Assembly: GCA_001768565.1 (NCBI GenBank)
Contig: MEOE01000016.1
Location: forward strand, 62,001-126,000
Source of the DNA: Bacteroidetes bacterium GWF2_33_16
GTDB lineage: Bacteria; Bacteroidota; Bacteroidia; Bacteroidales; UBA12077
Direction of reading: 5' to 3'
DNA length: 64,000 nucleotides
The position numbers were made by a program, and so were the translations under genes. The notes beneath the pieces are model-generated. The model did not search any database. It worked only from the letters and a program-made list of their open reading frames with translations, and was not told the DNA's origin. This document shows, one piece after another, positions 56,720-61,948 of the stretch. Position 1 is the first letter of the stretch. The number at the start of each line of letters is the position of its first letter.

Positions 56720-56903
56720 TTTTAATGATTCGTTAAATTTGTAAAATAAAGTTTTATATAAAATTTCTTTTGCCAAAATTAAGAACTTATTAATACATAA
56801 AAAAATAGTTAGCTTAGTGGTATATTTTTTGTAATATTCTAATTAACTTATTATTTTCACATCCCATTTTGTAGTGATACAAAAAACAGAAAGTACAGAA
56901 CAA

Positions 56904-57470
56904 ATGAATGTAAGAAGATTAATTATTACTTTTTTATTTTTTATTGTTGGCATTCAGGTTTTCGCTCAGGACCAAACAGAAAAACTTGATACTATCTTTC
57001 TATTAAGTAGAAAAAAACTTGTTGTTCAGATTAAAAATGTTTCTTCAGCAACTGTCCGATATTATGATCCAAAAAATCAGGGGTCGTTTACTATTGAAAG
57101 AAAACAGATTCAACAAATAATATTTAATAATGGGAGAAAAGAGGTTTTTAATAAGCCTGTATTTAGCATGGTTGCAGAAGGCGATTGGAAAACAATTATT
57201 GTTACAGATAACAAAAGTGATGTTGCTGGTTTGTATGAACTGGGAGCTGTAAATGGGAAATCATCTGCTGGGAGTAAAGATGCCAAATCGGCAAAAAGGA
57301 GTGCTATTATAAGATTGCAGAAACGAGCAGCAAATTTGGGTGCAGCAATGGTTCTGGTTACTAAAGAAGAACCTATAGGTGGTTTTGGAGAAGCACCTTC
57401 CTTTAATATTGAAGGCATAGCTTATGGATACGAACCGCCTAAGGAAAACACGACAGAGGGTGAACAATAA
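56904..57470 (+). CDS. Secreted protein of unknown function, paralogue of 43333-43941
   Basis: A 188-residue exported protein starting at the ATG at 56904, with signal peptide RRLIITFLFFIVGIQVFAQ; a GTG ten codons upstream is less likely. Strand-rich middle (KLVVQIKNVSSATVRYYDPKN, IQQIIFNNGRKEVFNKPVF), then GDWKTIIVTDNKSDVAGLYELG, SAKRSAIIRLQKRAANLGAAMVLVT and GFGEAPSFNIEGIAYGYEPP. These blocks match the gene at 43333-43941 in order and spacing. It has no N-terminal Pro-rich linker. The function is unknown. Confidence 0.75.
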   Translation: MNVRRLIITFLFFIVGIQVFAQDQTEKLDTIFLLSRKKLVVQIKNVSSATVRYYDPKNQGSFTIERKQIQQIIFNNGRKEVFNKPVFSMVAEGDWKTIIVTDNKSDVAGLYELGAVNGKSSAGSKDAKSAKRSAIIRLQKRAANLGAAMVLVTKEEPIGGFGEAPSFNIEGIAYGYEPPKENTTEGEQ

Positions 57471-57542: not shown

Positions 57543-59195
57543 CTATAACTCAGACAATCCTATTTCGCTTAAGCCCTGTATAAATACAACATCTTTTGGT
57601 ATTCTTTCCTTTTGAACTCTATACAAATCATTTAATAATTCATCTCGGATAAATCCTTTTTCTTCGATAAGCTTTTTCGCGGCAATATAATCTCCATTGC
57701 CTTGAATAACCAAAATTTTATTTGCTAAACCTTTCATAGCTTCTTTCATTTTCTCGAAATGAACAGTATAGGTATTTGTTTTTTTATCATATGAGAATGC
57801 TCCTGCGTCCTGGAAATAGTTAAACCGAATCATATTGGCAACACCTTGATCACTTGATATTCCGAATCGAACTGACCTGAAAATATCGGCCATATAAGTA
57901 ACATAGTTATCCATGAGTGTGCCTTTATTTAACTCGCCCATTTCGTAAAGCTTGGTAATAAAAAAAAGACTTAGAATGTCGTTTTTGCTTTCCTCAATAA
58001 TATTATAATGTTCTTTAAGAACATCACTTACTGGTTCTTTCTTTAATGTACTTTTAATTCCAAGGGAACTACCAACTTCGTAGAACATTGTATTTTCGAA
58101 AAAAGCATCAAAAGTAATATGCTTCTGTTGCTCCGGATTAATTAATAAATTGCTAATTGGTTTCAGTATTTTCTCAAACTTGGCCTCCATTACATTTCTG
58201 AACTGAAGTTTTCTACTGCCAACCTGCATCTGCACCTGTCCATCGCGAGGCAAGTTAAATGCAATTTTTTTACTTCCTGCATTCCAAACACCCGAACAAT
58301 AGATTACATCATACACCATAATATCAGATAGTCCTTTAGGCAATTCATTAATATATTTTGCATCCACAGGAAGATTTTTCTGAAGATATGGAAGCAACAA
58401 TGCATATTTCTCAAGATTTTTACTCCATTCCTTATCCTTAATCAAAACCATAGATTGGTAAGAGGCTTTAGACCAGAACAACCGATCATCAGTATCATCA
58501 ATAGGTCCAATTATAAAATCTATAATATTATCTTTCATTTTCATCCATGCAATGTCGCTTTCAAAATATTTATCGGTAAGCAATGCTTTAGCCCTAAGTT
58601 CCAAATAATTTTTAAGATCTTTATTATCGGCTAATTCAGCGGCTCTATTCATTAATTCGGCAATTCTTTGAAGTTTTTCATCATAAGCCTTATAATAGGG
58701 AATAGTTTGTAAACCACCTACTTCATTTCTACGTATAAGTGTATAAGAGCTGTATTTTTCCAGATCACCAAACTCTTCAAATTCTTGATAAGTCATATCT
58801 GATGGGTAAAAATTAGCTCCATCAGGCCTCTTCCCTACTCCATCAACAAAAGGTTCCATTCCATTCAACCTATCCCATGGTCCATAATTTATATTTACAT
58901 ACTTCAATGTTTTTTCATCTTTAACCATTTCAAGTAATTGGTCCTTCTTACCACAAGTTTGTATCCAGTATAATTCATCGATTATCTGGGCTGCTTCAAA
59001 TAACAATGGAAGCATTTTCTTCTGATTTTCAGTTAAGATATTTAGGTTGGCTGTTAAATTTACATCAGCATAATTCATCAGAAGTTTTTCAATTTTTGAT
59101 TGTGGCATACTTTCTTTGCTCTTATCTTTTCTGGAGCATCCAAAAAAGAATAACAACATGAAAATAAATGTGGTTATTATTAACTTTCTATACAT
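57543..59195 (-). CDS. M49-like (dipeptidyl peptidase III-type) lipoprotein lacking zinc ligands
   Basis: A 550-residue lipoprotein; the ATG at 59195 gives MYRKLIITTFIFMLLFFFGC with Cys20 as lipobox Cys. The rest matches the M49-like protein family of Bacteroidota: INYGPWDRLNG, DGANFYPSDMTYQEFE, SFYEVGSSLG-like block at 371-379, IIEESKNDILSLFF and FRSVRFGISSDQGVANMIRFNYF. In active M49 enzymes the zinc motif is HEXXGH (or HExxHG), with a second motif EECRAE. Here the first reads YEVGSS (372-377), so both His ligands are gone; the second is EESKND (401-406), with its Glu kept. It is probably not a metallopeptidase. Confidence 0.8.
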   Translation of the reverse strand: MYRKLIITTFIFMLLFFFGCSRKDKSKESMPQSKIEKLLMNYADVNLTANLNILTENQKKMLPLLFEAAQIIDELYWIQTCGKKDQLLEMVKDEKTLKYVNINYGPWDRLNGMEPFVDGVGKRPDGANFYPSDMTYQEFEEFGDLEKYSSYTLIRRNEVGGLQTIPYYKAYDEKLQRIAELMNRAAELADNKDLKNYLELRAKALLTDKYFESDIAWMKMKDNIIDFIIGPIDDTDDRLFWSKASYQSMVLIKDKEWSKNLEKYALLLPYLQKNLPVDAKYINELPKGLSDIMVYDVIYCSGVWNAGSKKIAFNLPRDGQVQMQVGSRKLQFRNVMEAKFEKILKPISNLLINPEQQKHITFDAFFENTMFYEVGSSLGIKSTLKKEPVSDVLKEHYNIIEESKNDILSLFFITKLYEMGELNKGTLMDNYVTYMADIFRSVRFGISSDQGVANMIRFNYFQDAGAFSYDKKTNTYTVHFEKMKEAMKGLANKILVIQGNGDYIAAKKLIEEKGFIRDELLNDLYRVQKERIPKDVVFIQGLSEIGLSEL

Positions 59196-59377: not shown

Positions 59378-60346
59378 TTAAAATAAACCTTTGATAATAA
59401 CTTCGGTATTTATTTGAATATTCTTTTGTTTGATTATTTTATTTAACGTTTTTCGGACAGCACCTTCATTGTGTTTTACTCCTACTAAAACATTCTCTAT
59501 TATTTCTTTTGCATCAATTCCAGAAATTGATAATGACTTTATATTTCCTTTTTCTACTGAAAGTGAAAATATTAATTCACCCTGCTCCGTTTTTACTTTA
59601 TTGCTTAAATCATAATCAGGTGAATATCCAAAATTCCATTCCCATGTGGCATATTTTTCCAGAACTAATTCTTGTATTCGAGCAATATCGTATTTGTTAA
59701 ATGAATACGATTTAACATCACTATAATTTAATTCTATAAATTGATTTATCTTGCTTTGCAATTCAGTAATTAAGATCTCTTTGGAAATAAAATCTTTAAT
59801 ATTTGCTACTACAGCACGAACTGATTTAACTGCTTTGTCAGAATACCTATTTTCGGGAGCTTTAATGGCATTATTTAAAATCGATAAATCGGACGAAAAC
59901 AATAATGTTCCATGATGTAAAACTCTTTTCTTAAATATATGCTCTGCATTACCTGAAATCTTAAAACCATTTACCTGAATATCATTATGCCCTCCAAATT
60001 CAGCATTTACACCTAGCTGTTTTAGAACTTCAATTATAGGTGTGGTATACATTTTAAAGTCAACAAGATTTTTATCGTTTCCTGAATTTTTAATAAAAGA
60101 AAAGTTAAGATTCCCCAGATCATGATAAACTGTTCCTCCACCAGATAATCGCCTAACAACAGCAATATTATTCTCTTTTACATATTGATAGTTTATTTCG
60201 GCAAGTGTATTTTGATGTTTTCCAATAATTATTGAAGGTTTATTTTGATATAGTATAAAACAGTCATCTGTAAAATTCTTAAGGAGATATTCCTCAACGG
60301 CAATATTAAAATAAGGATCAGTAGTACTATTTTGGATAATTAACAT
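59378..60346 (-). CDS. lplA: Lipoate--protein ligase
   Basis: Attaches free lipoate to lipoyl domains using ATP. The 322-residue protein has VAVVRRLSGGGTVYHDLGNLNFSFI, the NGFKISGNAEHIFKKRVLHHGTLLFSSD block with the catalytic Lys, and a C-terminal domain of about 75 residues (ELIFSLSVEKGNIKSLSI) as in full-length LplA. With lipA-lipB at 32925-34504 it gives the organism both synthesis and salvage of lipoate. Confidence 0.93.
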   Translation of the reverse strand: MLIIQNSTTDPYFNIAVEEYLLKNFTDDCFILYQNKPSIIIGKHQNTLAEINYQYVKENNIAVVRRLSGGGTVYHDLGNLNFSFIKNSGNDKNLVDFKMYTTPIIEVLKQLGVNAEFGGHNDIQVNGFKISGNAEHIFKKRVLHHGTLLFSSDLSILNNAIKAPENRYSDKAVKSVRAVVANIKDFISKEILITELQSKINQFIELNYSDVKSYSFNKYDIARIQELVLEKYATWEWNFGYSPDYDLSNKVKTEQGELIFSLSVEKGNIKSLSISGIDAKEIIENVLVGVKHNEGAVRKTLNKIIKQKNIQINTEVIIKGLF

Positions 60347-60384
60347 TTGAATAATCTTGAAAAACGGGTAAATACTATCTCTAT

Positions 60385-60954
60385 TTACATTTGTTTAAAT
60401 ATCCTTTTATTAGCAAGTTTATAGGCTTTAAAAACAACAAAACCAATTAGAAAACCTAGCAATGCGCCACAAATTACATCAAGAGGATAATGAACTCCCA
60501 AATAAATTCGGCTATAGGAAACAATTACTGCCCATAAAAAAATAAAAATAGTAAAGGGCATATATTTAAACAAAAATGTTAAGAAACTTGCAATAGCAAA
60601 AGTGTTCGCCGCGTGCGACGAAACAAAACCATATTTACCCCCACATTTGTTTTTTACCAAATGAACAATATCTTGTAGCTCAGGAGTATGACAAGGACGC
60701 AATCGTTGAAAAATATCTTTGAAAAAATGCACTGACACTTGATCCGAGAGTAAAACAAGTAAAGCAATAAAAAGCAATGTTACATACGACTGTTTTCGTT
60801 GCTTATATATTATAAATGCAGCCAATATTAAATATAATGGTATCCACAACGTTGTTTTGGTAATCCACCACATAGCATCATCCCAAAAAGGCGAGTGAAT
60901 TCCATTAAGAAAAATAAACAATTGTGTATCCCAATATATGAGAAAATCAATCAT
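60385..60954 (-). CDS. PAP2-family membrane phosphatase
   Basis: A 189-residue protein with about five to six hydrophobic segments. The three PAP2 motifs are present: KDIFQRLRPC, FVSSHAANTFA (SGH-like, with the catalytic His) and SRIYLGVHYPLDVICGALLG. Such enzymes remove phosphate from lipid pyrophosphates or lipid A; the substrate here could be undecaprenyl pyrophosphate, phosphatidic acid or lipid A. Its gene follows obgE by one base. Confidence 0.92.
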   Translation of the reverse strand: MIDFLIYWDTQLFIFLNGIHSPFWDDAMWWITKTTLWIPLYLILAAFIIYKQRKQSYVTLLFIALLVLLSDQVSVHFFKDIFQRLRPCHTPELQDIVHLVKNKCGGKYGFVSSHAANTFAIASFLTFLFKYMPFTIFIFLWAVIVSYSRIYLGVHYPLDVICGALLGFLIGFVVFKAYKLANKRIFKQM

Positions 60955-60955
60955 G

Positions 60956-61948
60956 CTAACTCGAATGTAATTCTTTCCAAATTAAATCTTTAAGCTCACT
61001 TATTCCTTTTTGTGCAATTGATGAAATAAAGACATAAGGAATATCGGGCAAGTCCTGTTTTATCTCTTTTATTAACTCTTTGTCGAGCAAATCGGATTTA
61101 GTAATTGCAAGAATTCTTTTTTTATCAAGCAACTCTGGATTAAACTGTTCGAGCTCTGAGAGTAAAGTTCTGTAATCTTTATGAATGTGGTTACTATCTG
61201 CAGGAATCATAAATAACAACATTGAATTTCGTTCAATATGGCGCAAGAAACGTAATCCTATACCTTTTCCTTCGTGTGCTCCTTCAATAATCCCTGGTAT
61301 ATCAGCCATAACAAATGACTGCATATCCCTATATTTAACTATTCCAAGATTAGGTACAAGGGTTGTAAAAGGATAATCAGCAATTTTTGGTTTGGCAGCC
61401 GAAACCACACTAAGCAGGGTAGATTTGCCGGCGTTTGGGAAACCAACTAATCCAACATCTGCTAATAATTTAAGCTCGAGAATGTACCAGCCCTCCTTCT
61501 TGTCTTCGCCAGGCTGAGCATAACGAGGAGTTTGATGAGTTGCCGATTTAAAATGTACATTCCCCTGTCCTCCTCGTCCACCTTCTAAAAGAATTTTCTC
61601 CTCACCATCCTCGGTTATCTCAAATAATATTTCTTCTGTTTCGCCATCTTTAGCAACCGTGCCGAGAGGAACTTCGACATAAACATCTTTGCCATTAGCA
61701 CCTGTTTTTTCCCATCCTGCTCCAGCCATACCGCTGGTTGCGAAAATATGTTTCTGGTATTTCAAATGCAGTAAGGTCCAAAGTTGTGCATTTCCTTTTA
61801 AAATGATATGCCCTCCACGACCACCATCACCACCGTCGGGTCCTCCTTTATCAATAAACTTTTCACGATGCAAATGGGGAGATCCCGCGCCTCCTTTACC
61901 CGAACGAAAAAATATCTTCACATAATCAACAAAACTCGCTCCCGACAT
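60956..61948 (-). CDS. obgE: GTPase Obg
   Basis: Ribosome-associated GTPase needed for 50S assembly and growth control. The 330-residue protein has the Gly-rich Obg fold ([35 protein letters not shown]) followed by the G domain: [38 protein letters not shown]. There is no long OCT tail, so this is the short form. It lies 3 bases after adk, in the conserved hpt-adk-obgE order. Confidence 0.96.

Follow-up and report, generated by a model that had tools for sequence, protein, structure and literature searches.

The gene at positions 57543 to 59195 on the minus strand of the window (the 64,000-nucleotide stretch of Bacteroidetes bacterium GWF2_33_16 that was analysed as a whole) encodes a zinc-less, M49 (dipeptidyl peptidase III [DPP III])-like lipoprotein. 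It is almost certain that this protein has M49 homology and fold, that its zinc and substrate site is lost, and that the altered state is conserved, is held by selection, and characterizes an old clade found in company with an intact paralogue. The reading that we prefer for the whole, with a probability of roughly 45%, is that the cleft of a dead M49 lipoprotein has been rebuilt for binding or capture beside the intact enzyme. The two-domain DPP III fold would have been kept and its cleft put to another use; the protein would neither hold zinc nor cleave peptides, and the cleft would close on a ligand other than a free peptide N terminus held as in DPP III. The resulting binding or capture lipoprotein would act beside the intact M49 lipoprotein and, in certain lineages, together with a receptor of the TonB-dependent type.

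The reading frame runs from an ATG at 59195 to a stop codon at 57543 (stop codon included in these coordinates) and specifies 550 amino acids, while the longest mechanical open reading frame of this gene reaches 59315 (590 amino acids). The open reading frame listing and translation confirmed the gene position, the residue numbers and the Tyr codon given by the first-pass annotation. A signal peptide and lipobox extend through Cys20 (residues 1 to 20; 59136 to 59195, minus strand); the lipobox, LLFFFGC, was recognized by eye, and Cys20 is an invariant column of a 37-row alignment (A3). These features bear out the earlier description of a lipoprotein and predict that the protein is lipid anchored outside the cytoplasm.

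In phmmer searches, the window protein matched DPP III of Caldithrix abyssi (CaDPP III; 6eom) with an E value of 4.2e-107, DPP III of Corallococcus (5zum) with an E value of 2.4e-81 and, more weakly, DPP III of B. thetaiotaomicron (5na6; E value of 1.6e-11). An AlphaFold model of the protein (pLDDT 90.6) aligned to 6eom with a Z score of 47.9 and an rmsd of 1.9 Å over 509 residues; the model of L002, an M49 paralogue from the same genome, gave a Z score of 49.0 and an rmsd of 1.5 Å over 510 residues. The M49 assignment made from the letters alone was thus upheld: the window protein is an M49/DPP III protein by descent and fold, of the short HExxH branch. It shares its length, N-terminal lipobox and two-domain fold with CaDPP III but differs in the site, as CaDPP III has HEISH and EECKAD and is reported to be active (PMC5805324), whereas the corresponding motifs of the window protein are YEVGS and EESKND and most of its substrate contacts are replaced.

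Curated models detected this group poorly. The window protein was absent from the matches of Pfam PF03571 (Peptidase_M49), even up to an E value of 1, and a search of NCBIfam yielded nothing useful. At an E value of 0.001, PF03571 matched 5 of the 37 members of the clade to which the window protein belongs (clade A, below), so that this clade is largely missed by the Pfam M49 model. The same model matched 43 of 48 rows of another alignment (A2), in which 5 rows are zinc-less, the matches being known as a total and not row by row. Annotators need to check the site residues of Bacteroidales M49 copies.

Both zinc-binding His residues are lost from the window protein. The sequence YEVGSS (residues 372 to 377; 58065 to 58082, minus strand) replaces HExxH, with Tyr (codon TAC, 58082 to 58080) and Ser at positions 372 and 376 and with the catalytic Glu373 retained, in agreement with the first-pass annotation. 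That annotation had named HEXXGH or HExxHG as the expected motif; the HExxH pentapeptide proved to be the appropriate comparison (HEVAHG in the paralogue from the same genome) and HEXXGH did not. All 18 sequences of the genus, including the window, read YE[VI][GA]S[SA]LG, and neither HEXXGH nor HEXXH was present where the window protein has YEVGS (18/18 rows). As 17 further genomes have the same state, an assembly or sequencing error was ruled out as the origin of the altered motif, as the first-pass annotation had argued from the clean frame, and the alignment of orthologues that it had proposed as a check showed the lost motif to be common to the genus.

The second motif, EESKND (residues 401 to 406; 57978 to 57995, minus strand), replaces EExKAD, and the FRSVRFGISSDQGVANMIRFNYF block was also found in the window protein. 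Ala405 is replaced by Asn in 18/18 genus rows, giving a departure from EEX(R/K)A(E/D), and the first Glu of the motif is kept in only 7/18. The third zinc ligand, Glu402, is kept in 18/18. The claim that the Glu of EESKND is kept thus holds within the genus but not beyond it, where 2 of the 19 other clade A rows have this residue. In region 5 (residues 446 to 457; 57825 to 57860, minus strand), Gln450 (57846 to 57848) was found in 18/18 genus rows, compared to His in 122/122 intact rows. By our own mapping, this His corresponds to His568 of rat DPP III, which is said, in the title of a cited reference, to be essential.

A comparison of alignment columns indicated that the changes were concentrated in the site. 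Among 76 columns with a conservation of 95% or more across 79 intact rows, 55 were kept in at least 95% of the genus and 10 were changed: Y235, E247, D303, T310, N317, H372, H376, E401, A405 and H450 (residues of the intact set). The first five align to Y242, E254, D310, T317 and N324 of CaDPP III (alignment to 6eom), which are among the substrate contacts in reported simulations (PMC5805324); the others are two zinc ligands, two second-motif residues and the region 5 His. Matches of at least 450 columns, plus L003, had been kept, and two partial or frame-broken loci (L062 and L065) were left out of the first comparison. With a larger intact set (85 conserved columns), the genus had lost 10/17 site columns versus 1/68 others (Fisher p 6e-8), the 17-column set having been partly picked after the first comparison, with positions 401 to 406 and 450 added once the changes were known.

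Of the five substrate contacts in question, two lie in region 1 (residues 230 to 249; 58449 to 58508, minus strand; limits mapped from PMC5667867) and one in region 2 (residues 311 to 335; 58191 to 58265, minus strand), both compared by alignment with the contacts of PMC5805324. In the window protein, Thr and Gln are found at the Y235 and E247 positions and Arg is found at the N317 position, which varies freely within the genus. For the substrate contacts of the S1 and S2 subsites, the counterparts of all five residues were replaced in 18/18 genus rows and that of N321 was replaced in 16/18, which argues against the peptide-binding role suggested by the first-pass annotation insofar as binding in the manner of DPP III is meant. 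The counterpart of E240 (Glu233) was Glu or Asp in 18/18 rows and, together with Glu402, could represent a partly retained site.

Retention of Glu373 and Glu402 in 18/18 genus rows raised the alternative that the protein continues to work as a zinc peptidase through an atypical metal site. This is extremely improbable. In rat DPP III, replacement of either His450 or His455 by Tyr is reported to abolish both zinc and activity (PMC3268031), and Tyr, the residue used in that mutant, is the one found at the first zinc-His position here. The region 5 His and the substrate contacts are also replaced. A zinc site elsewhere in the protein, which the first-pass annotation had put forward as evidence that would overturn its reading, was considered and rejected at the level of sequence: the window protein has His residues at positions 359, 396 and 479 and only H359 is constant across the 18 genus rows, so no conserved His cluster is apparent in the sequence.

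The window-type gene was present in 18 of 20 genomes of the genus (own genome included), with the other copies having 66 to 84% identity to the window protein. A scan of genome contigs returned 62 loci, and these data came from a scan of 59 genomes (own genome included), 39 of which had a match. In the latter scan, the gene was absent from two genomes of the genus, G014, in which PAP2-obgE is present but other genes replace lplA and the M49-like gene, and G019, in which the matching stretch is split over separate contigs; in the sister genus (G020 to G022), lplA is present with no M49 gene adjoining. An intact HExxH copy was also found in 18/18 of the genus genomes with the window-type gene, one of these copies being partial. 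In the window's own genome, the intact copy (L002) has 50% identity to the window protein and resembles it in being a lipoprotein with the same modelled fold, but differs in having an intact site and a PF03571 match (56.7 bits; cutoff, 21). A third M49 copy of this genome (L003) is longer and distant.

Across the order, 223 of 393 genomes matched the query at an E value of 1e-30. Of these 223 genomes, 39 yielded second or weak M49 copies, most of which were fetched and read; the motif readings refer to loci listed or fetched from the matching genomes and imply no order-wide share. In a tree of 179 rows (omitting L201, L062, L065, L203, L204, L113, L209 and L003), 56 rows lacked one or both zinc His residues. 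This tree and an earlier quick tree, from which L062, L065 and L113 had been left out, were less resolved than a tree from which L205, L206, L207 and L170 were further omitted and in which 79 rows remained after thinning by identity. In the 79-row tree, constructed with the site columns excluded and a distant outgroup, the window's genus fell together with members of several families in clade A (20 rows; support, 100/98), a second zinc-less group formed clade B (10 rows; 100/96), and L168, L115, L196 and L183/L171/L202 represented isolated losses of zinc His residues. In full, clade A comprises 37 genes in 37 Bacteroidales genomes. On the evidence of these trees, the window protein is a member of an old zinc-less clade of the Bacteroidales.

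A single origin of all the zinc-site losses was not supported, as 32 "main" rows required three changes on the rooted tree and 0% of 200 bootstrap trees required only one, although the starred branches alone allow one. If the capture reading is correct, the other zinc-less M49 copies, in clade B and in several single lineages, would have arisen by separate losses of the same kind. The intact paralogue was found in 35/37 clade A genomes, where it provides a built-in control; in G206 and G033 (both ∼88% complete), an intact copy was not found. For clade B, an intact copy was present in 8/11 genomes and none was listed for the other 3. In these counts, the intact motif of the genome containing L050 was read separately, and the genome of L033 was equated with G206 by identical coordinates.

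Variation was also detected among copies on other branches. Zinc His residues have been lost on their own branches by L171, L183 and L202 (which keep the first His), by L196 and L197 (which keep the second), by L168 (which has only the second) and by L115. A clade B copy, L193 (G190:C90:10839-12476), has three in-frame stop codons, which may reflect gene decay or a fault in the assembly. L205 (G179:C163:9273-10718), also M49-like, has diverged strongly (∼30% identity; a branch length of about 4) and, of the site residues examined, retains the first Glu alone.

Clade A as a whole bears on whether the altered site has acquired a new chemistry, metal free or differently metallated, involving Glu373, Tyr372 and Gln450. 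Glu373 was present in 36/37 rows, Gln450 in 34/37 and Phe332 in 37/37, and the fold matches of the window model ranking below the DPP III entries were PolE/DUF6421 chains (9j3g and others; Z scores of 18 to 19). PolE is described as an iron-pterin enzyme that resembles DPP III but lacks its zinc motif (PMC12614342); other chemistry has, therefore, arisen on this fold (Z score of ∼19), and PolE provides a precedent for its reuse. PolE, however, retains a His-based iron site (HD/ExxH) and has ∼370 residues, neither of which applies to the window protein, where no HD/ExxH motif was found at the site and the whole protein contains three His residues. In clade A members outside the genus, furthermore, Asp, Asn or Glu occupies the second His position and the residue in place of the third ligand is highly variable, so that no constant site is maintained over the clade. 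A new chemistry is, consequently, quite unlikely. The clade A rows outside the genus kept 13/24 of the conserved region columns versus 37/40 of the other conserved columns.

Loss of the catalytic site, together with the absence of a copy from G014, G019 and the sister genus, might be explained by decay of a paralogue that no longer has a function. The selection data already contradict this explanation. In the same 11 species pairs, dN/dS was 0.056 to 0.158 for the dead copy and 0.048 to 0.138 for the intact paralogue (13 pairs, of which 2 were saturated; pairs share species and many dS values were above 1), consistent with purifying selection on the dead copy that is as strong as that on the intact one. 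Frames are open, and both the site blocks and the locus are conserved. Decay is thus very improbable, and with its catalytic residues lost and the gene apparently held by selection, the protein would be a pseudopeptidase, as the first-pass annotation had proposed from the motif and as is now backed by motif loss in the orthologues of the genus. A conserved old gene under selection points to a new, nonprotease job for an old enzyme.

Conservation within the site was compared between the dead and intact copies of 17 of the 18 genus genomes (G009 was left out, as its intact copy is partial). Divergence over the five site regions together was 0.111 for the dead copies and 0.113 for the intact ones, compared to 0.244 and 0.239, respectively, outside these regions; when the mask was shifted circularly, none of 512 shifts reached the dead copy's site difference. 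Region 5 was nearly frozen in the dead copy (0.020 versus 0.188 in the intact copy) and region 3 was tighter (0.070 versus 0.116), while regions 1, 2 and 4 were looser (0.178 versus 0.095, 0.114 versus 0.085 and 0.143 versus 0.126), indicating that part of the cleft has been relaxed. Positions 235, 317 and 401 varied freely (0.76 to 0.78 versus 0.00). These patterns suggest that the zinc-side blocks are being maintained in a new state and that the old amine-anchor side has been partly released. Maintenance of the zinc-side blocks is the main reason why a functional cleft with a new use is preferred to pure scaffolding, the other role that the first-pass annotation had suggested; scaffolding is disfavored as the site blocks are jointly as conserved as those of the intact paralogue.

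Dead and live subunits occur in pairs among the M16 peptidases. In another alternative, the window protein would be a noncatalytic subunit or regulator that needs no ligand of its own, forms a heteromer with the intact M49 lipoprotein and positions, stabilizes or limits it. Such a role would fit the presence of the intact paralogue in nearly all clade A genomes and the close linkage of the two genes in family f63, where, in 5/5 genomes fetched, the dead copy lies directly upstream of the intact one, with the same orientation and a spacing of 7 to 13 bp. Residues 505 to 524, which diverge less in the dead copy (0.119) than in its intact counterpart (0.302), could be a contact face, and CoDPP III was crystallized as a dimer (PMC9820243). 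The two genes are, however, unlinked in the window's genus, and the site blocks are conserved although a partner surface need not be located there; a subunit role is, hence, somewhat unlikely.

The locus itself is conserved. In 17 genus loci, read to the ends of the stretches, the gene order was purE-hpt-adk-obgE-PAP2-lplA-zinc-less M49-hypothetical-plsC-parE-parC, except that one locus (L019) had no downstream match, one (L016) had no plsC-parE-parC and two (L009 and L014) had single genes unmatched; gene names were assigned by eye unless Pfam is cited. In the window, the upstream lplA-like, PAP2-like and obgE genes (59378 to 61948, minus strand; named by eye) follow the order common to the genus and family f82. 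In f82, two loci had the whole order from purE to the hypothetical gene and a third had it as far as the contig end, with a dead M49 protein having 35 to 38% identity to the window protein. This synteny indicates that the locus is older than the split of the two families, barring transfer of the whole block. Locus comparison also identified the conserved hypothetical protein that faces the 3′ end of the M49-like gene (56874 to 57470, plus strand); it had no match in a Pfam search and is a conserved neighbor of the dead M49 gene in both the genus and f82 (33% identity in f82).

Gene neighborhoods in other lineages hint at a system. The f63 dead-intact pair is followed by a gene for 805 to 813 amino acids (L177, L178, L182, L184 and L186), part of which matched CarboxypepD_reg-like and TonB Plug models in 4/4 loci tested. 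A TonB-dependent receptor gene also follows the dead copy in Ancylomarina (L050), but this gene is not significantly similar to those of f63. Upstream of the f63 trio are a gene for ∼230 amino acids (no Pfam match for the one copy tested), which is likewise found ahead of the dead copy in L244 of family f34, and a prolyl-tRNA-synthetase-like gene (by eye).

SusD-type capture lipoproteins work with TonB-dependent receptors. The dead M49 proteins of f63 and Ancylomarina resemble these in that a lipoprotein gene lies near a TonB-receptor-like gene, but the SusD fold is unrelated, and in the loci of the window's genus neither a TonB-receptor gene nor the intact copy adjoins the zinc-less gene. In a specific form of the capture reading, the zinc-free lipoprotein would pass a ligand other than a free peptide N terminus to the intact enzyme and a TonB-dependent receptor and so be an analogue, derived from a peptidase, of the SusD-type proteins; this form is quite unlikely.

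Retention of dead peptidase homologues for binding or regulation is a feature that the window protein would share with the pseudo-metallopeptidases, as reviewed in PMC11266112. These have so far been described from a few families. A term search of that 2024 review found neither M49 nor DPP3, its reference list includes a paper on heterosubunit M16B, and no description of a dead M49 clade was found in the portions of the open-licence literature on inactive, lipoprotein or unusual M49 members that were covered. The clade makes it possible to test the conversion of a closing two-domain exopeptidase into a noncatalytic binding protein. As for the intact paralogue, in several genus genomes it adjoins two small flavodoxin-like genes (by eye) and a gene for ∼630 amino acids with no Pfam match in the one copy tested (neighborhoods of L002, 3199 to 4632; L101, 3036 to 4925; and L105, 1758 to 2847).
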